Positions 698 to 15,886 of a DNA stretch of 16,218 nt are shown here, piece by piece. Each line of letters starts with the position of its first letter. Position 1 is the first letter of the stretch. The notes below the pieces were generated by a model. The model worked only from the letters and a program-made list of their open reading frames with translations, was not told the DNA's origin and did no database searches. The DNA comes from Clostridia bacterium (GTDB lineage: Bacteria > UBA6262 > WVXT01 > JAUXBS01): contig JAUXDE010000028.1 of NCBI GenBank assembly GCA_030618495.1, positions 1 through 16,218 of the forward strand, given 5' to 3'. A program made the translations under genes and the position numbers.

Positions 698-1675
698 ATG
701 ATTAGAGTTTTCAGGCTTTTTATAATATTGTCATTCTTAGCGGTTCTTTCGGGTTGTGCGGCTAAGGGGGATACTGTGGTCCTTAAACTGGCTCATGGCC
801 TTGATATAACCCATCCGGTTCATAAGGCCATGATATTCATGGCTGAAAGGGCAAAGGAGAAGTCCGCGGGTAAAATCAGGATAGATATTTACCCCAGTGA
901 ACAGCTGGGGTCCGAAAGGGAACTCATAGAGCAGGTTCAGATTGGCTGTATAGATATGACCAAGACATCAACCGCTCCTCTTGAAAGTTTCATACCTTCA
1001 ATGGGTGTATTCAGTGTGCCCTATATTTTCAGGGATCATGACCACAGGTGGAAGGTTTTGCTGAATCCCATTGGAAAGAAAATACTGAACAGCGGTGAAA
1101 AGGTGGGACTCAGAGGATTGTGTTATTATGATGCCGGCAGCAGGAGTTTTTATACGAAGGACAAGCCGGTAAACAGCCCTGCGGATCTCAAAGGCATGAA
1201 GATAAGGGTTATGAAGAGCAAGACTTCAATGGAAATGGTAAAGGAACTCGGCGCGTCCCCTACCCCTATTTCGTGGGGCGAGCTTTATACTTCTCTTCAG
1301 CAGGGGGTGGTTGACGGGGCCGAGAACAATCCTCCCAGTTTTTACACTTCCAGGCACTATGAGGTGTGCAGGTACTACTGCCTTGATGAACACACTGCAA
1401 TACCGGATATACTCCTTATAAGCTATGTTGTCTGGAAGGGGCTTCCTGAAAATGTCAGGAAGATATTACAGGAGTCAGCCGACGAATCGATGATGTTCCA
1501 GAGGAAATTATGGAAGGAGAAAACCGCTGAATCGATGAAGGTTGTAGAGGAAGCGGGCGTTGAGGTAATATACCCGGACAAGGAATTTTTCAGGAGCAAA
1601 GTCCGTAACATGCATGAGAGGTACAGGGGAACGGAGATAGGGAATATACTGGAAGAAATAAAGGCGGTTAATTAA
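698..1675 (+). CDS. dctP: TRAP transporter solute-binding lipoprotein, DctP family (hexuronate-type candidate)
   Basis: This is the extracytoplasmic substrate-binding subunit of a tripartite ATP-independent periplasmic (TRAP) carrier. I choose ATG 698 (325 aa) over GTG 683 because GAGG at 687-690 sits 7 bases upstream, while the GTG would lie almost at the predicted transcription start. The protein begins with a lipoprotein signal ending in LSGC, so Cys20 would be lipidated. Family marks include LAHG near the start of the mature part, SEQLGSERELIEQVQIG, and KGMKIRVMKSK with Arg170 at the position of the conserved arginine that grips the substrate carboxylate. GVVDGAENNPPSF is typical of DctP proteins, including members that bind uronates and other sugar acids. 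It is followed immediately by dctQ and dctM. Uronate specificity is inferred from the operon, not from the binding site itself. Confidence 0.92.
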   Translation: MIRVFRLFIILSFLAVLSGCAAKGDTVVLKLAHGLDITHPVHKAMIFMAERAKEKSAGKIRIDIYPSEQLGSERELIEQVQIGCIDMTKTSTAPLESFIPSMGVFSVPYIFRDHDHRWKVLLNPIGKKILNSGEKVGLRGLCYYDAGSRSFYTKDKPVNSPADLKGMKIRVMKSKTSMEMVKELGASPTPISWGELYTSLQQGVVDGAENNPPSFYTSRHYEVCRYYCLDEHTAIPDILLISYVVWKGLPENVRKILQESADESMMFQRKLWKEKTAESMKVVEEAGVEVIYPDKEFFRSKVRNMHERYRGTEIGNILEEIKAVN

Positions 1676-1682
1676 TAAAATT

Positions 1683-2195
1683 ATGAATGCGTACGTAAAA
1701 ATAAAAGAAACTTTTGTTAAAGTCCTGGAAACAGTGGTTATTACCGTAATGGCCGTTCTGGTTATTGATGTTGTATGGCAGGTCTTTACAAGGTTCGTGT
1801 TGAGGAATCCCAGTTCGTGGACGGAGGAGCTTGCGACGATGCTGCTTATATGGGTATCGTTGCTCGGTGCCAGTGTTGCGCTGATAAGGAAGGGGCACCT
1901 TGGGGTGGATTATTTTGTAAATAAACTCAAATCAGGGCCGAGGAGTATTGTTGATATATTTATCTATGCCATGGTGGGGTTCTTTTCTGCGAGCGTGATG
2001 ATTGCGGGAGGGATAAGGCTGGTATGGCTGACACTTCTTACCAACCAGCTATCACCCGCGATGGGTATCAGGATGGGTTACGTTTATCTGGCGTTACCGT
2101 TAAGCGGTTTCTTTATGCTGGTTTTTTCCATAGAGTCCATACTGGGGGGAATAAAGAGGATAAAGGAAATTAAAGAGGTTGAAGGTAAGCAGTAG
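1683..2195 (+). CDS. dctQ: TRAP transporter small permease subunit, DctQ family
   Basis: 170 aa with four predicted membrane segments (about residues 15-35, 50-66, 85-110 and 125-148). It carries the family's conserved stretch RNPSSWTEELATMLLIWVSL, in which the W-T-E-E box ends the first extracytoplasmic loop, followed by GASVALIRKGHLGVD. DctQ is the small membrane subunit that scaffolds the DctM transport channel. The ATG lies 7 bases after the dctP stop codon, with no good Shine-Dalgarno sequence directly ahead, so translation is probably coupled to dctP. Length and order (P-Q-M) are normal for a TRAP system. Confidence 0.92.
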   Translation: MNAYVKIKETFVKVLETVVITVMAVLVIDVVWQVFTRFVLRNPSSWTEELATMLLIWVSLLGASVALIRKGHLGVDYFVNKLKSGPRSIVDIFIYAMVGFFSASVMIAGGIRLVWLTLLTNQLSPAMGIRMGYVYLALPLSGFFMLVFSIESILGGIKRIKEIKEVEGKQ

Positions 2196-2210
2196 AAAAA
2201 GGATGCTGTT

Positions 2211-3509
2211 ATGAGTATTCAGGTTATTATTCTTGTCGTTACCTTTGTTGTGTTGTTGGTTCTGAATGTGCCCATAGCGTTCAGTATAGGGCTGGCAACA
2301 TTTTTTACAATCCTTTCCGTCGGAACTATCCCCACATTCACTATTATTGCCCAGAGGATGGCTACGGGTATTGACAGTTTTGCCCTGCTTGCCATTCCGT
2401 TCTTTATTCTGTCCGGGATACTTATGGGCAGGGGGGGAATTGCCAGGAGGCTTATAAATTTTGCGGGAGCGCTGGTGGGCAGGTTCACGGGAGGGCTTGC
2501 CTACGTTAATGTCCTTACATGCATGATGTTCGGGGCAATCTCGGGTTCGTCTGTTGCTGCTGTTTCATCGGTTGGTGGATTCATGATACCGGAAATGAAG
2601 AAGAAGGGTTATGACAATAACTTTAATGTTGCGGTCAGTACGACAGCTGCAACCACGGGATTGCTTATTCCCCCGAGTAATATAATGATAATATACGCGC
2701 TTGCCTCGGGAGGGGTTTCCGTGGCGGCAATGTTCATGGCAGGATTCCTTCCCGGTATAATTTTCGGTCTGTTCCTTATCCTGGTAAGCGGGATTATTTC
2801 AATAAAAAGGAATTACGGTTCAGGTGAAAAGAGCGGGCTGAAAAAAATAATCAGGACTTTCCTGGAAGCCATACCGGGGATAATGCTCATTTTTATAGTC
2901 CTTGGCGGGATACTCGGTGGTATCTTTACGGCAACCGAGGCGGCGGCTATAGCGGTGGTCTATTCCTTTATATTAGCCGTTTTCTTCTACAGGGAGGTAA
3001 AGTTCAGTGATTTGCCCGAGATACTGCTTCAGAGCGGTATTACTACGGCAATAGTAATGATGCTTATAGGCACTTCCGCTGCCATGTCCTGGATACTGGC
3101 TTATGAGAATATACCGCAGAACATGAGTGCGGCCCTGATTGCCCTGTCCGACAACAAATATGTAATATTGCTTATCATAAACTTCATCCTGCTGTTCGTG
3201 GGGACTTTCATGGATATGACGCCGGCTGTCCTGATATTTACCCCGATATTTCTGCCGGTGGTGCAGCAGCTGGGGATGCATCCCGTTCATTTCGGTATTA
3301 TAATGATTGCCAACCTGTGCATAGGCCTGTGTACGCCACCTGTTGGAACCTGCCTGTTCGTTGGCTGCGGTGTGGGGAAGACCACTATTGCAAAGGTAAC
3401 AAAACCGCTCATCCCGTTCTTCATAGCCATGATTGCGGCTTTAATGCTGATAACGTATATTCCGTCATTATCGATGTTTATACCTAAAATGCTCGGATTG
3501 ATTAAGTAA
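2211..3509 (+). CDS. dctM: TRAP transporter large permease subunit, DctM family
   Basis: 432 aa, hydrophobic throughout with about 11-12 membrane segments; this is the ion-coupled (Na+ or H+) transport channel of the TRAP system. Recognisable signatures are the N-terminal VPIAFSIGLA and DSFALLAIPFFILSGILM. The central GAISGSSVAAVSSVGGFMIPEMKKKGYD is the hallmark of DctM. Near the C-terminus come FMDMTPAVLIFTPIFLPV and CIGLCTPPVGTCLFVG. AAAGGA-type ribosome binding sequence lies at 2197-2202. Together with dctP and dctQ it makes a complete importer that would bring an acidic sugar into the cytoplasm for the downstream enzymes. Nothing is truncated. Confidence 0.95.
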   Translation: MSIQVIILVVTFVVLLVLNVPIAFSIGLATFFTILSVGTIPTFTIIAQRMATGIDSFALLAIPFFILSGILMGRGGIARRLINFAGALVGRFTGGLAYVNVLTCMMFGAISGSSVAAVSSVGGFMIPEMKKKGYDNNFNVAVSTTAATTGLLIPPSNIMIIYALASGGVSVAAMFMAGFLPGIIFGLFLILVSGIISIKRNYGSGEKSGLKKIIRTFLEAIPGIMLIFIVLGGILGGIFTATEAAAIAVVYSFILAVFFYREVKFSDLPEILLQSGITTAIVMMLIGTSAAMSWILAYENIPQNMSAALIALSDNKYVILLIINFILLFVGTFMDMTPAVLIFTPIFLPVVQQLGMHPVHFGIIMIANLCIGLCTPPVGTCLFVGCGVGKTTIAKVTKPLIPFFIAMIAALMLITYIPSLSMFIPKMLGLIK

Positions 3510-3534
3510 ATAAAGTCAAGGAAGGCAGGCTAAT

Positions 3535-4326
3535 ATGAACCTGAAAATCAATTATGAAAAAAAAGATGGTTTTACCCCGATCGTTGACGGAGGAAACGGT
3601 ATTATAAGGAATATAACGCTGGGGATAGTGTCATTGAAGAAAGACGGCGTTTACAAGGGATTATTCTCTGCCTCGGAAACAGGCCTTGTTATACTCAGTG
3701 GGAAGTGCGATGTGAAAGCGGGCGAGGAAGTCTTTGCCGGTATAGGTGAAAGAGAAAACGTTTTTGCAGGCAGGGCATACGCGGTTTACGTGTCTCCCGG
3801 AATGGGATTCGAAATCAAGGCGGTAACGGACTGCGAGATTGCGGTCTGCGGAGCCCCTGCGGAAAAGAAGGGCAAGATACGGCTGATAACTCCCGGTGAA
3901 AACAAGCAGAAGACCGTGGGTAAGGGGAACTGGCAGAGGGATGTTTACAATATCATTGATGATTCGGTTGATGCGGATAAACTGTTAATAGGTGAAACTA
4001 TAAATCCTCCGGGCAATTGGTCGAGCGCCCCGCCCCACAGGCACGAGGAGGACAACCTGCCCGAGGAATCCAAACTCGATGAAGTGTACTTCTACAAGTT
4101 TAATCCCGATAAGGGCTTTGGCATACAGAAGGTTTATACCGACGATAATTCGATAGACGAGACCTATACTATTAAAAACAACGATACAGTTATAATTCCC
4201 AGGGGGTATCATCCGGTTGTCGCGGGTCCCGGTTATGAACTGTACTACCTGTGGATACTTGCCGGTGATAAAAGGGTCATGAAGGTAAAGGACGACCCTG
4301 TACATGCGTGGCTGAAGAATACATAA
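3535..4326 (+). CDS. IolB/KduI-family cupin isomerase, candidate hexuronate (glucuronate to fructuronate) isomerase
   Basis: 263 aa, bicupin of the KduI/IolB family. IolB isomerises 5-deoxy-glucuronate in inositol breakdown. KduI acts on 5-keto-4-deoxyuronate and has been linked to interconversion of ordinary hexuronates. The C-terminal cupin carries PPGNWSSAPPHRHEEDNLPE and LDEVYFYKFNP, which are IolB hallmarks. By eye the metal ligands of the family are present: His168, His170, Glu183 and His226 (in IPRGYHPVVAGPGYELYYL). No other iol genes are nearby. The next gene is a UxuB-like reductase and a TRAP importer lies upstream, so I infer that it supplies D-fructuronate in place of UxaC, which is absent. 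Genuine 5-deoxyglucuronate isomerase activity remains possible. The start ATG has a purine-rich AAGGAAGG-like sequence upstream. Confidence 0.8.
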   Translation: MNLKINYEKKDGFTPIVDGGNGIIRNITLGIVSLKKDGVYKGLFSASETGLVILSGKCDVKAGEEVFAGIGERENVFAGRAYAVYVSPGMGFEIKAVTDCEIAVCGAPAEKKGKIRLITPGENKQKTVGKGNWQRDVYNIIDDSVDADKLLIGETINPPGNWSSAPPHRHEEDNLPEESKLDEVYFYKFNPDKGFGIQKVYTDDNSIDETYTIKNNDTVIIPRGYHPVVAGPGYELYYLWILAGDKRVMKVKDDPVHAWLKNT

Positions 4327-4337
4327 GGAGGGGACGA

Positions 4338-5171
4338 ATGGGTAAAAACTTAGATATATTCAGCTTGAAGGGCAGGACGGCGGTTATTACAGGCGGCGGC
4401 GGAGTCCTGGGCGGAGCTATAGCCAGTGGGCTTGGAATTGCCGGGGCGGCTATTGCCGTATGCGATATAATCATGGAGAAGGCAGAAGAGGCGGCAGAGG
4501 GTTTAAAGGCTGACGGCGTGAACGTAAAACCCTATAAGATGGATGTGCTGAACAGGGAATCGATACAAAAGTGCTGTGATGGTATTTATTCCGATTTTAA
4601 GCATGTGGATATACTGGTAAACGGGGCGGGCGGTAATATGAAGGATGCCACCACGTCAAAGGAATTGAGTTTCTTTGACCTGCCGCTTGAAGGCCTGGAA
4701 AAAGTTATTGGGCTGAACCTTTTCGGGGGGGCGATACTCCCAAGCCAGGTATTCGGCAGGAAGATGGTTGAAAAAGAAGAAGGCGGTTCCATAATAAATA
4801 TTTCGTCCATGAATGCTTTCAGGCCGCTTACCCGTATCCCGGGTTATTCGGCGGCGAAAGCCGCGGTAAACAATTTTACCCAGTGGCTTTCGGTGCATAT
4901 GGCGCAGGAATATAATAAAAAATTAAGGGTAAACGCAATCGCTCCCGGTTTTTTTATGACGGAACAAAACCGTTATCTACTTACGGAAAAGGAGACAGGC
5001 AAACTGACTTCCCGGGGTGAGACTATTATCAAGCATACACCAATGGGTGAATTCGGCAATCCTGACGACCTCGTGGGGGCTGTCGTATGGCTTGCCTCGG
5101 ATGCTTCAAGGTTCGTAACAGGCACCGTAGTAAAAGTAGACGGCGGGTTTTCCGCTTTTTCCGGTGTGTAG
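4338..5171 (+). CDS. SDR-family D-mannonate oxidoreductase (fructuronate reductase, UxuB-like)
   Basis: 277 aa, classical short-chain dehydrogenase. I choose ATG 4338 (MGKNLDIFSLKGR) because AAGGAGGGG at 4325-4333 precedes it; an upstream GTG at 4308 lies inside the previous gene and would swallow this site. The Rossmann motif TGGGGVLG is at about residues 18-25 and NAGG appears as the variant VNGAGGN. The catalytic triad is Ser157 (ISSMNAF), Tyr170 and Lys174 (YSAAK). The ending FVTGTVVKVDGGFSAFSGV, and the middle SSMNAFRPLTRIPGYSAAKAA, match the SDR subgroup annotated as D-mannonate oxidoreductase in Thermotoga- and Bacillus-type uronate clusters. It would reduce D-fructuronate to D-mannonate with NAD(P)H. 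The usual next enzyme, mannonate dehydratase, is missing from this locus, which makes the fate of mannonate the interesting question. Confidence 0.82.
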   Translation: MGKNLDIFSLKGRTAVITGGGGVLGGAIASGLGIAGAAIAVCDIIMEKAEEAAEGLKADGVNVKPYKMDVLNRESIQKCCDGIYSDFKHVDILVNGAGGNMKDATTSKELSFFDLPLEGLEKVIGLNLFGGAILPSQVFGRKMVEKEEGGSIINISSMNAFRPLTRIPGYSAAKAAVNNFTQWLSVHMAQEYNKKLRVNAIAPGFFMTEQNRYLLTEKETGKLTSRGETIIKHTPMGEFGNPDDLVGAVVWLASDASRFVTGTVVKVDGGFSAFSGV

Positions 5172-5214
5172 GTTAGATTTTCCCTAATAAAAAAGAAAAG
5201 GAGATCAGATTAAA

Positions 5215-6630
5215 ATGGCATTGAATAACATTGGGTTGATAGGCTTGGCGGTAATGGGAGAGAACCTGGTACTCAACATGGAGAGCAAGGGATTCTCGGT
5301 TGCGGTATTTAACCGCACGGTGGAGAAGGTTGATAAGTTTATTAATGGCGGCGCAAAAGGAAAAAACATAAAAGGGACTCATTCGGTTGAGGAGTTGTGC
5401 TCATCGCTTGAAAAACCCAGGAAAGTCATGCTCATGGTCAAGGCGGGCGATGCGGTTGACAAATTTATTGAAAAATTATTACCCTGCCTTGAAAAGGGAG
5501 ATATAATTATTGACGGGGGGAATTCTAATTTTCAAGATACTATCCGAAGGACAAAGTATGTTGAGGATAAGGGATTGCTTTATATCGGGACGGGGGTATC
5601 CGGCGGCGAGGAGGGAGCTCTTAAGGGGCCTCCCATCATGCCGGGGGGGTCCGGGGCGGCATGGGAGCATGTGAAGCCCATATTCCAGAAGATTGCCGCA
5701 AAGGTTAAAGACGGTTCTCCCTGCTGTGAATGGGTCGGCAATAACGGCGCGGGCCATTTCGTGAAAATGGTGCATAACGGTATAGAGTACGGGGACATGC
5801 AGTTTATATGCGAAGCGTATTACCTCATGAAGAACGCCCTTGGGCTTTCCTATGAAGAGCTTCATAAGACATTTGATAAATGGAACAAGGGAGACCTTGA
5901 TTCATACCTGATTGATATTACTACTGATATACTCGGTAAGAAGGATAAGGAAACCGGCAAGCCCATTGTTGAGATAATCCTGGACAGGGCAGGCCAGAAG
6001 GGCACGGGGAAGTGGACTTCCCAGAATGCCCTTGACCTGGGAGTGCCCGCGCCCACGATTGCCGAGGCGGTTTTTGCCAGGTGCATGTCCGCAATCAAGG
6101 ATGAACGGGTAATAGCTTCAAAAGCATTCACTGGACCCGTAGAAAAATACGATGGTGACAGGGAGAAGTTCATTGAAGCGATACACGATGCGCTCTATGC
6201 CTCGAAGATGTGTTCGTACGCCCAGGGGTATGCCCTGATGAAGGCGGCAGCAACGGAGTTCAAATGGAACCTCAAGTTCGGGGAGATTGCGCTGATGTGG
6301 CGCAACGGCTGTATTATAAGGGCAAAGTTCCTGGGACGCATAAAGGAAGCGTTTGACAGGAACCCGGGGCTTGATAACCTGCTGCTCGACCCATTCTTCA
6401 AGGATATTATCATGAAGTCGCAGGATAACTGGAGGAAGGTGGTTTCCACTTCGGTTAATCTCGGTATTCCCTTAACTGCCATTGGCTCGGCGCTTTCGTA
6501 TTTTGACAGTTACCGCAGCGCGCAGCTTCCTGCCAACCTCCTGCAGGCGCAGAGGGATTACTTCGGCGCCCACACTTACGAAAGAGTTGATAAGGAAGGC
6601 AATTATCATACCGAATGGCTGAAGGTGTAG
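5215..6630 (+). CDS. gnd: 6-phosphogluconate dehydrogenase, decarboxylating
   Basis: 471 aa, full length for the long (NADP-type) Gnd class. It oxidises and decarboxylates 6-phosphogluconate to ribulose-5-phosphate in the cytoplasm. The dinucleotide fold opens with IGLIGLAVMGENLVLNM, and NRTVEKVD after strand 2 fits NADP preference. IDGGNSNFQDT, GVSGGEEGAL and the active-site stretch GAGHFVKMVHNGIEYGDMQ are all present, with Lys184, His187, Asn188 and Glu191 at the catalytic positions. A small departure is ALKGPPIMPGG where most members have ARYGPSLMPGG. The C-terminal part (GGCIIR-like WRNGCIIRAKFL, SYFDSYR, LPANLLQAQRDYFGAHTYER) is standard. A gnd inside a hexuronate operon is unusual, because hexuronates normally leave via KDG. 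It implies that 6-phosphogluconate is made in this pathway. Confidence 0.95.
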   Translation: MALNNIGLIGLAVMGENLVLNMESKGFSVAVFNRTVEKVDKFINGGAKGKNIKGTHSVEELCSSLEKPRKVMLMVKAGDAVDKFIEKLLPCLEKGDIIIDGGNSNFQDTIRRTKYVEDKGLLYIGTGVSGGEEGALKGPPIMPGGSGAAWEHVKPIFQKIAAKVKDGSPCCEWVGNNGAGHFVKMVHNGIEYGDMQFICEAYYLMKNALGLSYEELHKTFDKWNKGDLDSYLIDITTDILGKKDKETGKPIVEIILDRAGQKGTGKWTSQNALDLGVPAPTIAEAVFARCMSAIKDERVIASKAFTGPVEKYDGDREKFIEAIHDALYASKMCSYAQGYALMKAAATEFKWNLKFGEIALMWRNGCIIRAKFLGRIKEAFDRNPGLDNLLLDPFFKDIIMKSQDNWRKVVSTSVNLGIPLTAIGSALSYFDSYRSAQLPANLLQAQRDYFGAHTYERVDKEGNYHTEWLKV

Positions 6631-6651
6631 AATTAAAAAGGAGGAGGACAG

Positions 6652-7539
6652 ATGCCGGATTATTCACAGGACAGGTTAAAGGACTTTAAACCAACAAAGG
6701 ATTTTTTCATAGGCATAGACTCGGACGGCTGCGCGTTTCCTACGATGGAACTGAAGCACAAGGAGTGTTTCATTCCCAATATAATAAACGAGTGGGACCT
6801 GCAGGCGATTTCAAAGTATGCGCGTGAGGCCGCGGAGTGGGTAAACCTGTATTCAAAATACAGGGGTGTAAACAGGTTCCCTGCGCTGCTCAAGGTGTTT
6901 GAACTTCTTGAGGACAGGCCCGAGGTTAAAAGGTCAAAAGTGAAATTACCTGACGTTACTTCATTGAAGAAGTTCGTGGATTCCGGGGTTCCCCTCGGCA
7001 ATCCTTCGTTAAAGAAAGCGGTTGAGGAAACAGGATATCCCATCTTAAAAAAGGCGCTCAAGTGGAGCATGGCGGTAAATGCCTCGGTGGCGGCAATGGT
7101 GAGGGGTGCCTACCCGTTCCCGTTCGTCAAGGAGGGGCTTGAGCTGATTTCAAAGAAAGCGGATGTTATCGTGGTATCGGCGACGCCGTGCGAGGCGCTG
7201 GAGAAGGAATGGGAGGAACATGACCTGTCGAAGTACGTTGCCATTATAGCGGGACAGGAAATGGGTAATAAGACTGAACACTTAAAGCTCGCCAGCGGGG
7301 GCAAGTACCCTGAAGGGCACGTGCTTATGGTGGGGGACGCCCCGGGAGACATGAAGGCTGCCAGGGCAAACAAGGCGCTCTTCTTCCCCATAAATCCCGG
7401 GCAGGAGGAATCCTCGTGGGAACTGGGGGCAAAAGAGGGATTCAATAAGTTCCTTGACGGTGCTTATGCCGGCGACTACGAAAAATCTTTAATTAAAATA
7501 TTTGATGAAATCCTGACTGATAACCCTCCGTGGGTATAG
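6652..7539 (+). CDS. HAD-superfamily hydrolase, probable sugar-phosphate phosphatase
   Basis: 295 aa. The four HAD motifs are visible: FIGIDSDGC (nucleophile Asp23, acid Asp25); VVSATP (Ser176); Lys207 in EMGNKTEH; and MVGDAPGDMKAA (Asp229, Asp233). A large, mostly helical cap of about 120 residues lies between motifs I and II (WDLQAISKYAREAAEW to ALKWSMAVNASVAAM), which is C1-type placement. HAD enzymes of this layout remove phosphate from small metabolites. I do not recognise a substrate. It sits between gnd and the phosphofructokinase gene, 21 bases after gnd, with AGGAGGA as ribosome binding sequence. It could clear a phosphorylated by-product that inhibits those enzymes, or hydrolyse a pathway phosphate ester; both ideas are inference. 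It is not a fragment: motif order and length are complete. Confidence 0.78.
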   Translation: MPDYSQDRLKDFKPTKDFFIGIDSDGCAFPTMELKHKECFIPNIINEWDLQAISKYAREAAEWVNLYSKYRGVNRFPALLKVFELLEDRPEVKRSKVKLPDVTSLKKFVDSGVPLGNPSLKKAVEETGYPILKKALKWSMAVNASVAAMVRGAYPFPFVKEGLELISKKADVIVVSATPCEALEKEWEEHDLSKYVAIIAGQEMGNKTEHLKLASGGKYPEGHVLMVGDAPGDMKAARANKALFFPINPGQEESSWELGAKEGFNKFLDGAYAGDYEKSLIKIFDEILTDNPPWV

Positions 7540-7575
7540 GATTATGACTATAAAAAACTCTTAAGGAGATGATAA

Positions 7576-8862
7576 ATGAGTAATAGGAATGTTATTATCG
7601 CGCAATCCGGGGGGCCTTCCCCGGTTATAAATAATTCTCTCAGGGGTGTTATAGAGGGCTGCAGGAGTTATCCCGATAAGTTCGGGACCATATATGCGGG
7701 CTTTCACGGTATTGAAGGGATACTGAAAGAGGAACTGCTTGACCTGTCAGCTCAGGATGAGCAGGAAATTAAACTTCTCGCAACTACTCCCGCGGCAGGT
7801 TCAATAGGGACATGCAGATATAAGTTAAAGGAAAAGCAGAAGGAGGATTTTAACAGGGTCATAGAAGTACTGAAGGCGCACGATGTGGGGTATTTCTTCT
7901 ATATCGGCGGCAACGATTCAATGGATACTGCCAACAAGGTAAGCATCCTTGCCGGGGAGAAGGGGCTTGACCTCATAGCAACCGGGGTGCCCAAGACTAT
8001 AGACAACGATGTGGGTGATTCCGAATTCAGGTTAATAGACCATACGCCGGGTTACGGCAGTGTGGCAAGGTACTGGGCCTGTAACGTCCAGAATGCGAAC
8101 GAGGAAAACGCGGGTTCCTGTCCTGCCGACCCGGTACTGGTGCTCCAGGCAATGGGCAGGAAGATAGGGTTTATCCCGGCTGCCGCGAGGCTTGCCGACC
8201 TTAACAGGGAGATACCCCTGCAGATATATATGGCTGAATCCGGGCTTGGCATGCAGGAACTGGCTGACAATGTGAATGATGAACTGAAGAAGAGCGGCAG
8301 GGTCATAGTGGTTATCAGCGAGGGGTTTCCTGTCGGGGATATCGGTGAGGTAAAAGACTCTTTTGGCCATACCAAGTTCAGTTCAAGCAAAACAAGCGTG
8401 GAGCAGGCCGTTGTTAACTACCTGAATGAAGCCGGGTTAAATGCGCGTGGCGCAGCCAGGGGTAACGTGCCCGGGACCGGTCAGAGGGATACCATGGTTT
8501 ACGCGTCGACGGTTGACCTTGATGAGGCTTATGAAGTGGGTAAAAAGGCGGCTCAGGTGGCGGTGGAAGACGGGAACGGCTACATGTCAACTATTCTCAG
8601 GGAGCCCGGGGATATATATAAAGTGAAGTATGACAGGGTTGGGCTTGATAAGGTCGCAAACTCGGAGAGGAAGTTCCCGGAATCGTGGATTGCAAAGAAC
8701 AGGATAGACGTTACGGATGAATTCATCAAATACGTAAAACCCCTTATAGGGGAGGAATGGGTAAAGGTCCCCCTTGAAGGCGGGGTTCAGCGTTTCACAA
8801 GGTTCAAAAAGGTATTTGCCGATAAGAAATGCAAGCCCTACGTACCCGAAACCTATAGATGA
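7576..8862 (+). CDS. pfp: Diphosphate-dependent phosphofructokinase (PFK family A), possible sedoheptulose-7-phosphate kinase
   Basis: 428 aa, PfkA superfamily. The N-terminus has AQSGGPSPVINN. Where E. coli ATP-PfkA has GGDGS this protein has GGNDS, with Asp114 at the position of Gly104. Where ATP enzymes have PGTIDND it has PKTIDND, with Lys140 at the Gly124 position. Both changes are the accepted marks of PPi rather than ATP use. Asp143 is the expected catalytic base. LQAMGRKIGFIPAAARLA and the ISEGFP region contribute the sugar-phosphate site. A consensus AAGGAG is at 7562-7567. PPi-PFKs commonly accept sedoheptulose-7-phosphate as well as fructose-6-phosphate. Next to gnd this suggests a job in returning pentose phosphates to glycolysis through sedoheptulose-1,7-bisphosphate, which is inferred from context. 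Confidence 0.88.
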   Translation: MSNRNVIIAQSGGPSPVINNSLRGVIEGCRSYPDKFGTIYAGFHGIEGILKEELLDLSAQDEQEIKLLATTPAAGSIGTCRYKLKEKQKEDFNRVIEVLKAHDVGYFFYIGGNDSMDTANKVSILAGEKGLDLIATGVPKTIDNDVGDSEFRLIDHTPGYGSVARYWACNVQNANEENAGSCPADPVLVLQAMGRKIGFIPAAARLADLNREIPLQIYMAESGLGMQELADNVNDELKKSGRVIVVISEGFPVGDIGEVKDSFGHTKFSSSKTSVEQAVVNYLNEAGLNARGAARGNVPGTGQRDTMVYASTVDLDEAYEVGKKAAQVAVEDGNGYMSTILREPGDIYKVKYDRVGLDKVANSERKFPESWIAKNRIDVTDEFIKYVKPLIGEEWVKVPLEGGVQRFTRFKKVFADKKCKPYVPETYR

Positions 8863-8877
8863 TAATGGGAAAAAGAT

Positions 8878-10143
8878 ATGGTAAAAGGCAGGGGAAGTGA
8901 AAAAGGATACCTTTCTGATGAAGAGGCCTGCGGTGTAATCCGTGAGGCGCTTTCCGGGATGGAACTCCGGGGGAAAAAGGTTTTGGCTATAATACCCGAC
9001 CATACAAGGTCAGGTCCGACCGGGTTCTTTTTCAGGCAGTTCTGTGAGCAGGCCGGGGATAAGGCCCGGAAGCTTGATTTCCTGGTAGCCCTTGGTACGC
9101 ATCCGGTGATGACGGAAGAGAAAATACTGGAATACCTCGGCATTTCAGCGGACGAAAAAAGGGGAAAATACGGGAAATTCAATATCTTCAATCACAGGTG
9201 GGATTTGCCGGAGACCTTTAAAACCATAGGGAAGATGTCAAAAGAAGATATAAGGGATATAACCAATGGGCTGTTCGAGGAGGAAGTCCCGGTAACCATC
9301 AATAAGATGCTTTTTGAGTATGACCTTATCATGATTTACGGGCCCGTCTTCCCTCATGAGGTTGTGGGGTTTTCAGGGGGGGACAAGTACCTGTTCCCGG
9401 GGGTTTCAGGGCGTGAGGTTATAAACTTCTTCCACTGGCTTGGCGCGGTTATAACCAATATAGAAATAAACGGCAGGAAGTCAACCCGGACCAGGGAGGT
9501 AATAGAAAGGGCTGCATCATTTGTGGATGTGCCCAGGTTTTACTTTTGTTCCGTAGTTGCTGACGGCAGGCTTAAGGGATTATTCGCAGGCGATTCAAAA
9601 GAGGCCTGGTCAGCCGCCGCGGACCTGTCCGCTAAGGTAAATATGGTTTATAAGGGCAGGACTTATAAAAAAGTTCTTGGGATAGCCCCGGAAATGTATG
9701 ATGACTTATGGACCGCCGGCAAGGTGATGTATAAACTCGAGCCTGTTGTTGAAGATAACGGGGAACTTATTATTTATGCGCCGCATATAAAGGAAGTTTC
9801 CGGCACTCACGGCAAAGACCTCGATAAGATAGGTTATCATGTAAGGGATTACTTCTATAAAAGGATGAAGGAATTCAGGGATGTCCCGGGAGGTGTTATG
9901 GCGCATTCCACTCACGTAAAGGGACTGGGTACGTACATTGACGGTGAAGAGGCGCCAAGGATAAAAGTTATCCTTGCGACGGGAATCCCCGAAGAGAAGT
10001 GCAGGAAGATAAACCTTGGATATATGAATCCTGAAGAAATCGATATAAGCAAATGGGAAGGGCGTGAAGATGAAGGAATCCTTGTGGTTCATCACGCCGG
10101 TGAGGTATTGCATAAGCCTGGAGGCAATATAAATGAACAGTGA
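8878..10143 (+). CDS. LarA-family nickel-pincer hydroxyacid racemase/epimerase, candidate D-gluconate 2-epimerase
   Basis: 421 aa, LarA/DUF2088 family. The lactate racemase LarA carries a nickel pincer nucleotide attached to a lysine and moves hydride at the C2 of 2-hydroxyacids. The key residues align with correct spacing. PDHTRSGP holds Arg44. His75 lies in LVALGTHPVM. His160, Lys170 and His186 lie in PHEVVGFSGGDKYLFPG and the following FFHW. These correspond to H108, H174, K184 and H200 of Lactobacillus LarA: the H-to-K gap is 10 and the K-to-H gap is 16 in both. The cofactor-making larB, larC and larE are not in the window. D-gluconate 2-epimerase is a reported activity in this family. 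Lying after a D-mannonate-forming reductase and gnd, it most likely interconverts D-mannonate and D-gluconate (inference). Other 2-hydroxyacid substrates are not excluded. Confidence 0.85.
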   Translation: MVKGRGSEKGYLSDEEACGVIREALSGMELRGKKVLAIIPDHTRSGPTGFFFRQFCEQAGDKARKLDFLVALGTHPVMTEEKILEYLGISADEKRGKYGKFNIFNHRWDLPETFKTIGKMSKEDIRDITNGLFEEEVPVTINKMLFEYDLIMIYGPVFPHEVVGFSGGDKYLFPGVSGREVINFFHWLGAVITNIEINGRKSTRTREVIERAASFVDVPRFYFCSVVADGRLKGLFAGDSKEAWSAAADLSAKVNMVYKGRTYKKVLGIAPEMYDDLWTAGKVMYKLEPVVEDNGELIIYAPHIKEVSGTHGKDLDKIGYHVRDYFYKRMKEFRDVPGGVMAHSTHVKGLGTYIDGEEAPRIKVILATGIPEEKCRKINLGYMNPEEIDISKWEGREDEGILVVHHAGEVLHKPGGNINEQ

Positions 10144-10498
10144 AGAACTGAGACATGAACAGGAAGCAGAGGAGCTAAAAAGGGAAATCGATGAGTTTCT
10201 CAAGGAGAAGGAGCGCGTTAGGGCAATCGTGGGCAGGATAGGCGGAGTGCCCACCTTCACGAAGAAGCTGTATAATATACTGTTCATCGTTTTCGTGCTT
10301 ATATGCCTTGTAATTTCACTTGTAAGCGGGGGAATGATGAGGTTGTTGATGATAGAACTGGCCATTGCAGCCTTGTCCCTTAAGTTCATCTACCTGATAG
10401 TCAACCAGGCGCGCATGAACCATTTTCAATTGTGGATGATGACTTCCATAGAATGGCGCATTAACGAAATAATAAAAATGATAAAAAATAAGGATTAA
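10133..10498 (+). CDS. Small coiled-coil/two-pass membrane protein of unknown function
   Basis: 121 aa; I do not recognise a family. Residues 1-35 are almost all charged (EELRHEQEAEELKREIDEF) and should form a cytoplasmic helix or coiled coil. Residues ~46-66 (LYNILFIVFVLICLVISLV) and ~69-90 (MRLLMIELAIAALSLKFIY) form two membrane segments separated by the short turn SGGM. The tail (MMTSIEWRINEIIKMIKNKD) is amphipathic and basic. The start ATG lies within the end of the LarA-family gene (11-base overlap), with GGAGG at 10120-10124, so the two are translationally coupled. That coupling argues for a real gene and a linked role, such as membrane tethering of a pathway enzyme or help with the transporter, but the sequence itself shows no function. 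Confidence 0.72.
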   Translation: MNSEELRHEQEAEELKREIDEFLKEKERVRAIVGRIGGVPTFTKKLYNILFIVFVLICLVISLVSGGMMRLLMIELAIAALSLKFIYLIVNQARMNHFQLWMMTSIEWRINEIIKMIKNKD

Positions 10499-10529
10499 AA
10501 TATTTTACCCGGTTTCTCACTCTTCGTTC

Positions 10530-10567
10530 CTTGACGCTGAAGCAAAATACTTCCAGCATATGTCAAG
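10530..10567 (+). promoter_or_regulatory. Intercistronic stem-loop ahead of the GH2 gene
   Basis: The 104-base gap before the GH2 start contains an imperfect hairpin. CTTGAC (10530-10535) pairs with GTCAAG (10562-10567), GCTG (10536-10539) with CAGC (10554-10557), and AAG (10540-10542) with CTT (10550-10552). A 7-base loop and two unpaired stretches complete it. No T-run follows, so it is not a standard terminator. It could be an mRNA processing or stability element setting the level of the exported enzyme apart from the cytoplasmic ones. I found no convincing promoter in this gap. Confidence 0.3.
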
Positions 10568-10602
10568 ATATGTTAGAAGCACCACACTATGAGGTACTGA
10601 AT

Positions 10603-13017
10603 ATGATTAAAGGAAACAGATTGAGGGTTATGTTGTTGGTTTTTGCGGTATTGAGTCTGACCGCTTCATCTCAGGCTGATTATTACAGGGTTGAATCGGA
10701 TATCAATGAGGGCTGGAGGTTTATCAGGCAGGATGTATCCGGCGCTGAAGAGCCTTCATATGATGATTTATTATGGGATGAAGTGAACATCCCGCACACG
10801 TACAATACCGATGACGTTTTCAAGGGGCCGGACATGTACAGGGGTATTGGCTGGTACAGGAAGAAGTTTACAGTGGACAGAAGATTCAGCGCAAGGAAGG
10901 TTTTTATAAAGTTCGAAGGAGTCAGCCTGACAGCAGAGGTTTGGGTCAATGGTAATCGTCTGGGCAGGCACATCGGGGGGTATACTGGTTTTGAATTCGA
11001 TATAACCAGATATGTTAACTTCGGGGCCGGGAACCTGCTTGCGGTAAAGGTTGATAATTCGAATAACAGGGACTTGCCACCGTATAATTATACGGATTTC
11101 CAGCCTTTCCCGGTTTCCGCGGATTATGCGATTTACGGCGGGATTTACCGTGATGTATATATCGTGAAAACGGGGAAGGCGCATATTGATAATGTGTTCG
11201 TTTTTACCCCTGAAGTATCGGAATCGAGCGCTGAAGTATGTATTAATACCGAAGTAAGGAACTATTACAGTACGGATAAGAAATGTACGTTGATAACGAA
11301 AATAGTTGATGCTAACGGAGACATCGTGAAAAGTATGGAGTCAGTATATAATATTAAACCGGATTCAGTTTACAGGTTTGAGCAGAAGAGTGATCCGATT
11401 GACAGTCCAAATCTATGGTCACCGGGGAATCCCTATTTATATAAGGTAAAATCGACTATTAAGCTTGATGGTAAGGTTATGGACTCGATTGAGAGCCCCC
11501 TGGGGGTAAGGTGGTTCGAATGGCAGGAGTATGATAACCTCAAACTAAACGGGAAGGAAGTCTTTATCAGGGGGATAAACAGGCATCAGGATATCAAGAG
11601 TTACGGGTATGCGGTACCCAATGAACTGCATGTAAGGGACTTTGAAATGATAAAATCTGCGGGTTTCAACCTGGTAAGGCTCGCTCATTACCCCCAGGAC
11701 CCGGCAGTGCTCAATGCCTGTGACAGGCTGGGACTGCTCGTGTGGGAGGAGATACCTGTGACCAACTGTATCTCCAGTACACCGGCTTACCTTGAAAGCG
11801 CAAAATCCCAGATGAGGGAGATGATAAGAGGGCACCGCAACCACCCGTGCGTCCTGGTATGGAGCCTGGGTAATGAATCAGACCAGAAGCTTGATGACGG
11901 TTCGTCAGAAGAGTATACAAATATGTTCTTTAAAGAAGTAAACAAGGTTGCTCACGAGGAGGACCCCACCAGGAAGACCATAAGCTGTAACCAGCATATC
12001 GAGTCCAACCAGCATATCCCCGATGTCTATTCGCCCCAGTACTGGATGGGCTGGTACGGAGCCTTTATGGAGGATTATGGTCCGGCCCTTGACGAAAAGC
12101 ATCGCAAGGATCCCTATTTTATAACAGGTGAATACGGCGCCGCAAGTTCCATTGACAGGCATATCGAAAGGCCGATACCCGGGGACTGGACCCAGGAATA
12201 CCAGTGCCTGATTCATGAAGCCTACGTAAGGCAGGGGGAGGAACGGTCTGACTGGTACATAGGCCACTGCTTATGGGTTGCGTTCGATTTTGCCTCGCCA
12301 AGGCTTGACAGGGGGACAAATGCCATACCCTTTATGAACCAGAAGGGGGTATGGACCTTTGACAGGAAACCCAAGGATCTTTATTATTTCTACAGGAGTT
12401 ATTATAAGGACGGTAGGGAAGACCCGATGGTTTATATAGTATCCCATACCTGGCCTGACAGGTGGAAGAAGCCGGCCAGGAAGAATGTATGGGTATACAG
12501 CAACTGCGATGAGGTTGAGCTGTTCAACGGTTACGGTTCTGTTTCCCTGGGGGTAAGGAAGAGGAAGCCAAAACAGACCAGGTTCGAATGGAAGAAGGCT
12601 AAGGTTGCCTATAATGTACTATACGCTGAGGCAAGGAACGACGGTGTTGTAGTGGCAATGGACACAATTAAGTTAAACAACCTTCTGGAACCTCCCGGAA
12701 GCGGCCCGGTGAAAACCGTTGAACTGAGCTGCAGCGTGAAGAGCATACCCGCCGATAATAAGAGCAAGTCGGTGATTACAGCCGTCTTAAAGGACGAAAG
12801 GGGGCTTATAATAAAGGATTCAAAGGAAACTGTTACCTTCACTATGGGGGGAGAGGGGAAGCTGTCCGGGCCTAACCCGGCAAAGCTGTGTAAGGGCACT
12901 GCCAGGATAACCATTATAGCTCCATCAGCATCTTTAAACCCGAGGATAAAAATTACCGGCACATCCGGTAACGGAGTTTTGGGGGAAGTGGACATCTTTA
13001 TCAGGCATGTCCAGTAA
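10603..13017 (+). CDS. Exported glycoside hydrolase family 2 enzyme, candidate beta-glucuronidase (or beta-galactosidase-like)
   Basis: 804 aa from ATG 10603, chosen because GAGG at 10591-10594 precedes it and because it places a type I signal peptide at the very N-terminus, with likely cleavage after SSQA (residue ~25). Earlier in-frame TTG/ATG starts would bury the signal. Domain order is: jelly-roll sugar-binding domain (INEGWRF, VNIPHTYN, GVSLTAEVWVNG, GGYTGFEFDITRYV); an Ig-like domain; then a TIM barrel (FIRGINRHQD, FNLVRLAHYPQDP, LLVWEEIPV). The acid/base is Glu425 in VWSLGNES and the nucleophile Glu510 in FITGEYGA. The barrel ends with MNQKGVWTFDRKPKDLYYFYRS, whose Asn579-x-Lys581 resembles the carboxylate-reading N-x-K of beta-glucuronidases. 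C-terminal Ig-like domains follow (KTVELSCSVKSIPADNKSK). The uronate operon supports glucuronidase activity, but GH2 specificity cannot be fixed by eye. Confidence 0.85.
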   Translation: MIKGNRLRVMLLVFAVLSLTASSQADYYRVESDINEGWRFIRQDVSGAEEPSYDDLLWDEVNIPHTYNTDDVFKGPDMYRGIGWYRKKFTVDRRFSARKVFIKFEGVSLTAEVWVNGNRLGRHIGGYTGFEFDITRYVNFGAGNLLAVKVDNSNNRDLPPYNYTDFQPFPVSADYAIYGGIYRDVYIVKTGKAHIDNVFVFTPEVSESSAEVCINTEVRNYYSTDKKCTLITKIVDANGDIVKSMESVYNIKPDSVYRFEQKSDPIDSPNLWSPGNPYLYKVKSTIKLDGKVMDSIESPLGVRWFEWQEYDNLKLNGKEVFIRGINRHQDIKSYGYAVPNELHVRDFEMIKSAGFNLVRLAHYPQDPAVLNACDRLGLLVWEEIPVTNCISSTPAYLESAKSQMREMIRGHRNHPCVLVWSLGNESDQKLDDGSSEEYTNMFFKEVNKVAHEEDPTRKTISCNQHIESNQHIPDVYSPQYWMGWYGAFMEDYGPALDEKHRKDPYFITGEYGAASSIDRHIERPIPGDWTQEYQCLIHEAYVRQGEERSDWYIGHCLWVAFDFASPRLDRGTNAIPFMNQKGVWTFDRKPKDLYYFYRSYYKDGREDPMVYIVSHTWPDRWKKPARKNVWVYSNCDEVELFNGYGSVSLGVRKRKPKQTRFEWKKAKVAYNVLYAEARNDGVVVAMDTIKLNNLLEPPGSGPVKTVELSCSVKSIPADNKSKSVITAVLKDERGLIIKDSKETVTFTMGGEGKLSGPNPAKLCKGTARITIIAPSASLNPRIKITGTSGNGVLGEVDIFIRHVQ

Positions 13018-13032
13018 AAAGGGAGAAAGATA

Positions 13033-14259
13033 ATGGCCATCAAATCAAAGGCGGATTTAACCTACATCAGGGAAATTAACAAGGCTGAGATTCTTAAGGT
13101 AATCCGGGAGAACGAACAGGCTTCACGCAGTAAGATATTCAAGATAACCGGGCTTGGCTGGGCAACGGTTACGAAGTTCGTAGGTGAACTGATTAAAGAA
13201 GGCCTTGTGATGGAAGTGGGCAAGGAGGGGAACTTCAGGGGCAGGAAGACTGTACTGCTGGAAGTCAATCCCAAGGCCGGGTATTTTATAGGAGTTGACC
13301 TCGGGATAAATAATATAACGGTTGCCGTTACCGATTTTGAGGGCAGGATAATAACCAGGCTGAAGAACCGGACCAGGAGGGAAATAGGCCCCCGGGAGAT
13401 ATTCAGGAAGACGGTTAAATATATAAAGGATACAATCGATAGTTCCGGGATAGACGTTTCAAGGATAAAAGGCATAGGGGTGGCAATCCCGGGAATTATA
13501 GACTTTAGAAACGGGGTTGTTGTGGAAGCTCCTAACCTGAAGGGATGGAAGAACGTGCCCATCAGGGAATGGTTTGAAAAGAAGTTCCAGTTTCCGGTGT
13601 TCATAGACAGGAACGCCAGGGCAATGCTGATTGCGGAGCGCTGGTTCGGCGCCGCAAGGGGAGTGGATAACCTTATATATATCAACCTTGGTATGGGTGT
13701 CAGCGCCGCCTTTATTTTTAACGGGCAAATATTCAGAGGCGAGAGCGGCAGTGTAGGGGAGTTCGGGCACACTTTCATTGCGGAATCTGACGTTGTCTGC
13801 GCGTGCGGCAGGAAGGGGTGTGTTGAAACGTTTGTTTCAGGCCCGGCAATCGTAAGGCAGGCCGTTGAATCGTTAAATGATGCTGCTGATTCTGAAATAC
13901 TGAAACTTGCGGGTAATAAGGAGGATATAACCGCGGAAACAGTATTCCTGGCAGCCAGGAAGGGAGATGCTAAGGCTCTTGAGGTTTTCAGGAATACCGG
14001 GAAGCACCTCGGTGTAGCGATTGGAAACATGGTAAACCTCCTCAATCCGGATATGGTGATTGTGGGCGGAGGGGTTGCCAGGGCCGGAGGATTGCTCCTC
14101 GATAACGCGAAGGAATCACTTGATAAACGGGCCATGGAAGTACCCAGGAAGGCCGTTAAGATACTTACAACGCAGTTATCCGAAGATGGAGGTGTTATAG
14201 GAGCCGCGGGGCTGGTCTTCCATGAATTATATGAACCTCCAACGATAGAAAAGCAGTAG
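13033..14259 (+). CDS. ROK-family transcriptional repressor (XylR/NagC type)
   Basis: 408 aa. An N-terminal winged helix-turn-helix (about residues 15-75: AEILKVIRENEQASRSKIFKITG... TVTKFVGELIKEGLV) precedes a ROK sugar-binding domain starting at FIGVDLGINNITVAV. The zinc site CACGRKGCVE and the GEFGH sugar-binding motif (E-x-G-H) are intact. The kinase motif ENDANAAA is altered to DRNARAM, so the catalytic Asp of ROK kinases is Asn194 here. This argues that the protein senses a sugar or sugar acid but does not phosphorylate it. It is encoded within the operon with GGGAG at 13021-13025 and is the obvious candidate to bind the palindrome at 657-672. The inducer is probably an uronate or aldonate (inference). 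Confidence 0.88.
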   Translation: MAIKSKADLTYIREINKAEILKVIRENEQASRSKIFKITGLGWATVTKFVGELIKEGLVMEVGKEGNFRGRKTVLLEVNPKAGYFIGVDLGINNITVAVTDFEGRIITRLKNRTRREIGPREIFRKTVKYIKDTIDSSGIDVSRIKGIGVAIPGIIDFRNGVVVEAPNLKGWKNVPIREWFEKKFQFPVFIDRNARAMLIAERWFGAARGVDNLIYINLGMGVSAAFIFNGQIFRGESGSVGEFGHTFIAESDVVCACGRKGCVETFVSGPAIVRQAVESLNDAADSEILKLAGNKEDITAETVFLAARKGDAKALEVFRNTGKHLGVAIGNMVNLLNPDMVIVGGGVARAGGLLLDNAKESLDKRAMEVPRKAVKILTTQLSEDGGVIGAAGLVFHELYEPPTIEKQ

Positions 14260-14272
14260 TAGGGAGGAACCA

Positions 14273-15373
14273 ATGAACGATGAGCTAAAAATAAAGAACC
14301 GGCACATCCGGGATTTTCTTAAAGAGAATAAACTGGACGGCATACTGCTTTCAAGGATACCGAACTTCGCCTGGGTTACGGGGGGCAGGGATAACGGGTT
14401 GAAGTCAAACACGGAAAAAGGTGTTGCTGCATTGTTTATTACCAGGAATGATAAATACCTCATTACAGGGAATAACGAAGCAAACCGCTTCAGGGAGCTT
14501 GAAAAAGTGGAGGACCTGGGTTATAAAATCCTTAGTTTCAACTGGTGGACACCCGAGGGGAGCAATAAAATAATAGAAGGACTGGCAAAAGGCGGGAGGA
14601 TTGCCTCCGATATACCGTGGAAGGGCACGGAAGCGCTGAACCATCGTTTTTACGAACTGCAGTCCACCCTGGTTGAGGAGGAAGTTAAGAGGTATAAAAA
14701 ACTCGGTAAGGATGCAGGCAGGATAATCGGAAGTGTATGCAAATGTATTAAGAAGGGGTACAGTGAGTATAAGATTTCAGCAATGATTCATAACGCCTTC
14801 ATAGAAGAGGGGATTAACGTTGTGGTTAAACTGATTGCCGCGGATAAAAGGGTATTCAGGTACAGGCATCCAATTCCTTCGGTTAATAAACTGAAGAAAT
14901 ATGTAATAGTATCAATCTGCGCGCAGAAACAGGGCCTTATAGTCTCATTAACCAGGTCGGTGCATTTCGGCAAACTGCCGCAGGATATTGCAGGAAGGTA
15001 CAGCACTGTTTTAAAAGCCGAAGCCGCGTTGATATTGAATTCAAAACCAGGCAGCAGGTTAGGGGATGTCCTGAAAAAGGCTACTGATATATACAGGGAA
15101 GACGGGTACGGTGAGGAATGGAAACTGCATCATATGGGAGGCCCTACCGGGTACGAGACCAGGAATTACCTGGCAACTCCTGCGAGCAGTAAAAAGTTAT
15201 TGTTAAACCAGGCTGTTGCCTGGAATCCCACCATTACGGGGGCAAAGGCTGAGGATACTATCATTATATTGAGAAACGGCCCGGTGGTTATAACTGATAC
15301 TGCTGACTGGCCCATGACCAGTATTAAGTCCGGGAATAAAACCATTAAAAGGCCGTCTATTCTTATTAAATGA
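14273..15373 (+). CDS. M24 (creatinase/aminopeptidase P fold) protein with a degenerate metal site
   Basis: 366 aa. The N-terminal creatinase-like domain (residues 1-~130: LKENKLDGILLSRIPNFAWVTG, GVAALFITRNDKYLITGNN) is followed by a pita-bread domain. Against the usual five ligands (D, D, H, E, E), the two Asp positions are Ser214 and Ser225 (in GLIVSLTR). His286/His287 lie in LHHMGGPTG. The first Glu is Asn318 (WNPT in place of EPG), and only Glu327 (AEDTIII) is kept. A dinuclear metallopeptidase is therefore unlikely. Creatinase itself is a metal-free hydrolase on this fold, so a metal-independent hydrolase or a binding protein is possible. It is the last gene of the operon, 13 bases after the ROK gene, with GGGAGGA as ribosome binding site. 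Its role in sugar acid use is unknown. Confidence 0.82.
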   Translation: MNDELKIKNRHIRDFLKENKLDGILLSRIPNFAWVTGGRDNGLKSNTEKGVAALFITRNDKYLITGNNEANRFRELEKVEDLGYKILSFNWWTPEGSNKIIEGLAKGGRIASDIPWKGTEALNHRFYELQSTLVEEEVKRYKKLGKDAGRIIGSVCKCIKKGYSEYKISAMIHNAFIEEGINVVVKLIAADKRVFRYRHPIPSVNKLKKYVIVSICAQKQGLIVSLTRSVHFGKLPQDIAGRYSTVLKAEAALILNSKPGSRLGDVLKKATDIYREDGYGEEWKLHHMGGPTGYETRNYLATPASSKKLLLNQAVAWNPTITGAKAEDTIIILRNGPVVITDTADWPMTSIKSGNKTIKRPSILIK

Positions 15374-15461: not shown

Positions 15462-15490
15462 TTGACATTTCAGTTAAATTATTGTATAAT
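15462..15490 (+). promoter_or_regulatory. Consensus sigma70 promoter (TTGACA-17-TATAAT)
   Basis: TTGACA at 15462-15467 and TATAAT at 15485-15490 are both perfect consensus, with exactly 17 bases between. Transcription would start near 15497. No long gene follows for about 390 bases, so the product would be a small RNA, a very short peptide, or a long leader for the DUF2341 gene. Confidence 0.75.
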
Positions 15491-15510
15491 ATTAGAGAAG
15501 GTTATAGCGA

Positions 15511-15576
15511 ATGAACGTGGGTTGCCCATATAGAAAGAATGGGTATAAAATTTTTAAATACGCCACCAATTTTTAA
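15511..15576 (+). CDS. Possible 21-residue peptide ORF or leader behind a consensus promoter
   Basis: ATG 15511 opens a 21-codon frame (MNVGCPYRKNGYKIFKYATN plus Phe, then TAA 15574-15576). GAAGG at 15497-15501 lies 9 bases upstream. However, the predicted transcript starts at about the same place, so the ribosome site would sit at its extreme 5' end. The same DNA can fold: GTGG 15517-15520 with CCAC 15563-15566, and TGCCCAT 15523-15529 with ATGGGTA 15539-15545 (one G-T pair). It may therefore be a small RNA instead. It is weak as a gene. Confidence 0.2.
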   Translation: MNVGCPYRKNGYKIFKYATNF

Positions 15577-15595
15577 GTTCTATAGTGTAACCGGG

Positions 15596-15626
15596 TTGAC
15601 AATGTATTCTGACAAGGTTATATAAT
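15596..15626 (+). promoter_or_regulatory. Second promoter-like sequence
   Basis: TTGACA at 15596-15601 is followed by TATATA at 15619-15624 (17-base gap) or TATAAT at 15621-15626 (19-base gap). It reads towards the DUF2341 gene at 15887. A 9-T run begins 9 bases after it, which would lie at the start of any transcript. This is weaker than the promoter at 15462. Confidence 0.45.
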
Positions 15627-15718
15627 GATAGTTCTTTTTTTTTAGGACAATATATCGGACAACGAAATAAAAGTTATCTATAAATAATAAACAGGCCTTT
15701 ATCCCGATTTCCAGAAAA

Positions 15719-15738
15719 CCACGGGTGTAAACCCGTGG
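15719..15738. repeat. 8-bp perfect inverted repeat, REP-like or IS200/IS605-end-like hairpin
   Basis: CCACGGGT (15719-15726) and ACCCGTGG (15731-15738) form a perfect 8-bp GC-rich stem with a 4-base GTAA loop, in otherwise AT-rich DNA. It is followed by GGCTCC and not by a T-run, so it is unlikely to be an intrinsic terminator. Hairpins of this kind resemble REP palindromes and the subterminal hairpins recognised by IS200/IS605-type Y1 transposases. No transposase is present in the window. Only one copy is seen here, so the repeat class is a guess. Confidence 0.45.
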
Positions 15739-15781
15739 GGCTCCATATCTGTAGCTTATGATTTTATTACAATAATTTTGC

Positions 15782-15810
15782 TTGTTTTGATACAAAATGG
15801 GTGGTATACT
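15782..15810 (+). promoter_or_regulatory. Extended -10 promoter of the DUF2341 gene
   Basis: TATACT (15805-15810) is preceded by TGG (15802-15804), giving the TGn extended -10 form. A weak -35 (TTGTTT, 15782-15787) is 17 bases upstream. The predicted start near 15817 leaves a ~70-base leader before ATG 15887. Confidence 0.5.
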
Positions 15811-15828
15811 TTGTAACAGAGGTAATGA

Positions 15829-15875
15829 GGCATGAAAAATCTCTTTTTCATAGCCTAAAAGATAAGTACTTTAGG
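15829..15875 (+). promoter_or_regulatory. Leader with two overlapping hairpins before the DUF2341 gene
   Basis: Hairpin A: GGC plus ATGAAAAA (15829-15839) pairs with TTTTTCAT (15844-15851) and, after one bulged A, GCC (15853-15855), around a 4-base loop. Hairpin B: CCTAAA (15854-15859) pairs with TTTAGG (15870-15875), directly before the ribosome site AAAGGA (15877-15882). CC at 15854-15855 is needed by both, so the two folds exclude each other. This layout could control translation. No known riboswitch class is recognised. Confidence 0.35.
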
Positions 15876-15886
15876 TAAAGGAATAA

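Follow-up and report, generated by a model that had tools for sequence, protein, structure and literature searches.

A probable KDG-independent glucuronate operon with a LarA-family enzyme and no recognised gluconokinase in a Clostridia bacterium

The window, i.e. the whole stretch of 16,218 nucleotides analysed, corresponds to an entire 16.2-kb contig from a 1.69 Mb genome, 98.1% complete, and carries an operon which probably serves glucuronate catabolism by a route bypassing KDG and ending in the pentose phosphate pathway. In the proposed pathway, an exported GH2 enzyme would release glucuronate, a TRAP importer would take it in, an IolB-type protein would convert it to fructuronate and an SDR would reduce the latter to D-mannonate. 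A nickel-pincer LarA homologue would then epimerise D-mannonate at C2 to D-gluconate; a kinase, not a recognised gluconokinase, would form 6-phosphogluconate, to be decarboxylated by Gnd to Ru5P with a gain of NADPH. For the epimerase step GntE2 provides a biochemical precedent; the other assignments are predicted from the families of the proteins and from their conserved neighbourhood. The sequence of conversions from uronate through mannonate and gluconate to Ru5P had been put forward in an initial annotation of this DNA, and is now well supported: NPN genes are present in the genome, and there is no G6PDH to feed Gnd. The same annotation had not remarked on the lack of a gluconokinase gene from the operon, the true gap and a more interesting point.

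Thirteen intact genes form one run on the + strand, between positions 698 and 15373; they include, as initially described, co-directional genes for GH2, TRAP, isomerase, SDR, LarA, Gnd and PPi-PFK. That gene list was incomplete, as it omitted a HAD protein (6652-7539), a 121-aa ORF (10133-10498), a ROK protein (13033-14259) and an M24 protein (14273-15373). Intergenic gaps range from -11 to 43 nt, with the exception of about 100 nt upstream of the GH2 gene. A sigma-70-like promoter, TTGACA-17-TATATT, was found on the + strand at 646-674 as a consensus match only, 31 such matches being present versus 26.7 expected from shuffles. A perfect 16-bp palindrome (657-672) overlaps its -10 element directly upstream of dctP, and the predicted site is likely to act as both promoter and operator of the operon. 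Both ends of the contig interrupt a gene: the C-terminal end of an ApbE-family protein lies upstream of the operon, at 1-251, and a perfect TTGACA-17-TATAAT, followed by the truncated start of a DUF2341 protein, is located at 15462-16216.

The TRAP transporter is encoded by the first genes of the run, for the solute-binding lipoprotein DctP (698-1675; PF03480), the small permease DctQ (1683-2195; PF04290) and the large permease DctM (2211-3509; PF06808, TIGR00786). The closest PDB relatives of DctP, 4x8r and 4n8y, are reported as glucuronate- and galacturonate-bound (PMC11668362), and its own ligand is likely, by this relationship, to be a hexuronate. The following gene (3535-4326) had been called IolB/KduI-like. 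The first part of the name stands, as the product matches TIGR04378 with 272.8 bits (cut-off 205) and contains HxH and YHP motifs; the second does not, the KduI model scoring 24.7 bits only. Genes for IolC, IolD and IolE, the rest of the myo-inositol pathway, were not found within the window, and we infer that the IolB-type protein is a glucuronate to fructuronate isomerase, in place of UxaC. The SDR (4338-5171), to which the reduction of fructuronate to D-mannonate is assigned, matches NF006132, 'D-mannonate oxidoreductase', with 356 bits (cut-off 281) and has the catalytic motif YSAAK. For the exported GH2 protein (10603-13017), a putative beta-glucuronidase, the best model is 'beta-glucuronidase LacZ4', with a score below cut-off; the catalytic Glu pair (SLGNES, TGEYGA) is present, together with the NxK motif in the form NQK (MNQKG). 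This motif is taken here as pointing to glucuronate, and the protein is, from its sequence, a probable beta-glucuronidase. Since the window has no UxaE and its GH2 carries the NxK motif, glucuronate fits better than galacturonate.

The LarA-family NPN enzyme (8878-10143) finds its best model in NF052594, 'putative hexonate epimerase', with 179 bits versus a cut-off of 500; because of this score it is termed GntE-like, its membership being unproven. Its sole full-length PDB relative is 4nar, whose table label is 'putative uronate isomerase' and which we take to be the structure of T. maritima GntE2, a protein about 30% identical to that of the window. The cofactor and catalytic residues of the reference LarA (D72, R75, H108, H174, K184, H200 and K298; PMC7583248) have their counterparts in D41, R44, H75, H160, K170, H186 and K282, all present and invariant across 7 orthologues. 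The EV/S loop and the alpha-11 W carried by groups 18-20 of the LarA superfamily (PMC7583248) are also matched, by PHEVVGFSGG and FHW. As LarA requires the nickel-pincer nucleotide, larB, larC and larE were sought in the genome; they are present, in one larE-larB-larC-nikR cluster on contig C169. Epimerisation between D-mannonate and D-gluconate was described in vitro for GntE2 in 2020 (PMC7583248), and the window protein is proposed as a candidate D-mannonate/D-gluconate 2-epimerase. Substrates vary among LarA groups and the KM of C. glutamicum GntE1 for mannonate is poor, 120 mM (PMC7583248), so that another hexonate could be the substrate. It is nevertheless improbable that the enzyme uses a different hexonate, or an aldarate, and that Gnd has a separate role: LarA recurs tightly with Gnd, a mannonate-type SDR and UxaE/UxaC, and the lack of G6PDH in the genome was counted against a separate role of Gnd.

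Gnd itself (5215-6630) is a 6-phosphogluconate dehydrogenase matching TIGR00873 with 750 bits. HMM searches revealed no G6PDH in the window's genome, nor in 6 of 7 other genomes searched, and because of this absence Gnd is here, most simply, probably fed by gluconate. UxuA, UxaC and KDPG aldolase were not found in the genome by HMM searches, each with working positive controls, these three being the enzymes of the KDG route that the searches covered. The lack of uxuA, uxaC and kdgA, initially noted for the run, is hence borne out genome-wide, and a complete uxaC-uxuA-kdgK-kdgA set, which would have spoken for the conventional route, does not occur, UxaC, UxuA and KDPG aldolase being absent. 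Counted in favour of the proposed pathway were the absences of UxuA, UxaC, KDPG aldolase and G6PDH, the larE-larB-larC-nikR cluster, the LarA residues, the SDR score, the DctP relatives and the LarA neighbours; counted against it were the LarA score below the NCBIfam cut-off, the low identity to GntE2 and the failure to find a gluconokinase.

A scan of GTDB genomes detected at least 586 LarA relatives in many phyla. A separate list of relatives includes only one genome of the host's genus and four of its order. Orthologues with 50-60% identity adjoin gnd, SDR, PFK and HAD genes in other families. Among the best-scoring 80 of these at least 586 loci, gnd and a PRK08277-like SDR were each found in 47, HAD in 37, PFK in 29 and UxaE in 21, counts which are limited by the many contigs ending near larA and, for the SDR, by variants other than PRK08277-like in further loci. 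The conservation of the SDR-LarA pair with gnd, initially suggested as a check, was observed. In the same 80 loci, UxaC, a label read from the sequence of that ORF family and not from an HMM search, is a neighbour in about 12, and TRAP genes resembling those of the window are present in 3; PF16257 (UxaE) was matched in two loci. UxaE and UxaC as neighbours make a hexuronate the likely substrate of the cluster. The whole defines a recurrent cluster composed of LarA, Gnd and SDR, with or without UxaE/UxaC, joined by a special PFK and by a HAD protein of no assigned class, and usually lacking a gluconokinase; its return in many phyla makes the arrangement of the window more than a chance one. A larA-uxaC pair at L088 is followed, after a few kb, by larE-, larB- and larC-like genes (L088:13864-16810).

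The PPi-PFK-type protein of the operon (7576-8862; NF010675, 383 bits, cut-off 273) belongs to a clade linked to the cluster, and is the third PFK of the genome, the two others being encoded elsewhere. It contains GGND and PKTIDND, and its predicted model matches 3k2q/3hno with a Z of 46.8. At the position of E. coli H249, in the H/Y-x-Q-R site for the phosphate of F6P, the window protein has Thr instead of Tyr; the residue is Thr in 32 of 33 cluster PFKs, whereas 15 of the 16 other PPi-PFKs compared have Tyr. The loss of R162 was also evaluated as a sign of altered substrate and rejected, as Arg is missing there in other PPi-PFKs too. No gluconokinase gene, either FGGY or GntK, is contained in the window, and P-loop GntK was above cut-off in none of the 8 genomes searched, the window's included. 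The only full FGGY protein of this genome, XylB-like and encoded on contig C157 next to rplU-rpmA, scores 274 as xylulokinase versus 170 as gluconokinase.

Two explanations of this gap are about as likely as each other. The cluster PFK may be a PPi-dependent gluconate kinase replacing GntK, a serious possibility which we hold somewhat below even. The absence of GntK, the presence of two further PFKs and the substitution of Tyr by Thr are in line with it, and so is the distribution of the clade: counting relatives at 53% identity or more, in a set not chosen for PFK, it occurs in 6 of 8 genomes with LarA and in none of 32 without. A gluconokinase-like FGGY gene adjoins larA in 5 genomes, all devoid of the cluster PFK; a PfkB kinase does so in 5, of which 3 lack the PFK, but two (G043, G073) carry both. 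FGGY proteins were classified in part, in those cluster-PFK genomes where they are few, and proved to be kinases of glycerol, xylulose or pentulose, with no gluconokinase among them; FGGY is altogether missing from one further genome having the cluster PFK (G063). A second link to uronates is found in G085, where a PFK of the cluster type adjoins UxaC (L219:495-3317) on a contig separate from that of larA. Against this, in most cluster-PFK genomes there are several FGGY or PfkB kinases of no assigned class, the R243/R252-type arginines are retained in the cluster PFKs, and the test within loci, over all loci, gave a p of 0.15. The panel was, moreover, partly picked by locus content, which inflates Fisher values over 48 genomes and makes the set not chosen for PFK preferable, and tree-based independent pairs of FGGY versus PFK are too few.

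Alternatively, with a probability not far from even, the PFK would act on S7P/F6P, leading Ru5P to glycolysis without transaldolase, and gluconate would be phosphorylated by a kinase encoded elsewhere, such as the FGGY protein of contig C157. PPi-PFKs of this superfamily accept S7P, and transketolase is found in some clusters, its genes lying within the LarA-Gnd-PFK cluster at L025, L031 and L112. However, LarA genomes with an FGGY kinase would make Ru5P too, yet lack this PFK; the Tyr of the F6P site is replaced in cluster PFKs; and the C157 protein is nearer to xylulokinases and sits by ribosomal protein genes. Because of locus selection, of the few FGGY cases and of the unclassified kinases, the gluconate-kinase reading is held at a tentative to possible level. 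In its full form, that the cluster-linked clade is a PPi-dependent gluconate 6-kinase which stands in for gluconokinase without being its orthologue, and which acts jointly with the conserved HAD protein in a nickel-dependent uronate to pentose phosphate pathway of many uncultured phyla, it is advanced as a tentative proposal. Thermogutta terrifontis, a cultured planctomycete, is reported to be without gluconokinase and to have a PPi-PFK, THTE_2629, and an SDR, THTE_2632 (PMC5673643); their tags are three apart, and they possibly belong to a cluster like that of the window.

The HAD protein, phosphatase-like and of an unnamed family, is encoded between gnd and pfk and is conserved in such clusters. 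Its motif residues D23, D25, S176, D229 and D233 are invariant in 30 orthologues. A sequence search against solved structures yielded no relative, and a fold search with the predicted model (pLDDT 96) gave only weak matches to general or sugar-phosphate phosphatases, with TM by query length below 0.5. As a guess, it might clear dead-end phosphates, e.g. 6-phosphomannonate. The ROK-family protein, NagC/Mlc-like, appears to be a repressor, with PF00480, a winged HTH and the motifs CACGRKGC and IDRNARA; it was considered as the missing kinase, which is unlikely, since replacement of the catalytic Asp by Asn makes it probably not a kinase. Closely 3' of its gene, the M24/creatinase-fold protein (PF00557, PF01321) has no evident part in uronate use. 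The 121-aa ORF, containing hydrophobic stretches, overlaps the end of larA and matches no family.

If the proposed pathway is correct, many uncultured lineages would burn uronic acids by way of a nickel-dependent epimerase and of pentose phosphates, without Entner-Doudoroff-type cleavage, and where a genome lacks G6PDH, Gnd would allow uronates to supply NADPH. If the PFK phosphorylates gluconate, a gluconate kinase would be hidden within the phosphofructokinase family, and caution would be needed in annotating such PFK genes as glycolytic.

Comparison with known systems revealed that the view, initially expressed, that no operon with such a set had been described is wrong, and GntE2 was already known to epimerise D-mannonate (PMC7583248). 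In T. maritima, the UxaR-regulated aldH-pelB-gnd-uxaRED-gntEK operon is read as leading from galacturonate to gluconate and the pentose phosphate pathway (PMC3750489, citing Rodionova et al. 2012). Both systems combine an SDR from hexuronate to mannonate, a LarA-family GntE, Gnd and entry into the pentose phosphate pathway. T. maritima has in addition GntK, UxaE and a co-regulated kdgAK-uxuBA route (PMC3750489), whereas SDR, LarA and Gnd stand together in the window in an operon without gluconokinase, UxuA or KDPG aldolase, with IolB and TRAP instead and with HAD and the special PFK added. GntE1, GntE2 and the window LarA, the latter known here from its sequence, share NPN-binding and catalytic residues, the EV loop and the W signature (PMC7583248, PMC11770544). 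In Lactobacillus suebicus, the pathway from galacturonate to 6-phosphogluconate likewise leads mannonate to the pentose side, but there phosphorylation of mannonate comes before the epimerisation, which acts on 6-phosphomannonate (PMC6978723). With the UxuAB/KdgK/KdgA isomerase pathway the route shares the first steps, up to D-mannonate; there, dehydration to KDG and cleavage of KDPG follow, whereas the window's genome has neither UxuA nor KDPG aldolase. The route from uronate to gluconate is therefore already known in kind, and the variant described here is distinguished by the lack of a recognised gluconokinase, by its special PFK and by its HAD protein.
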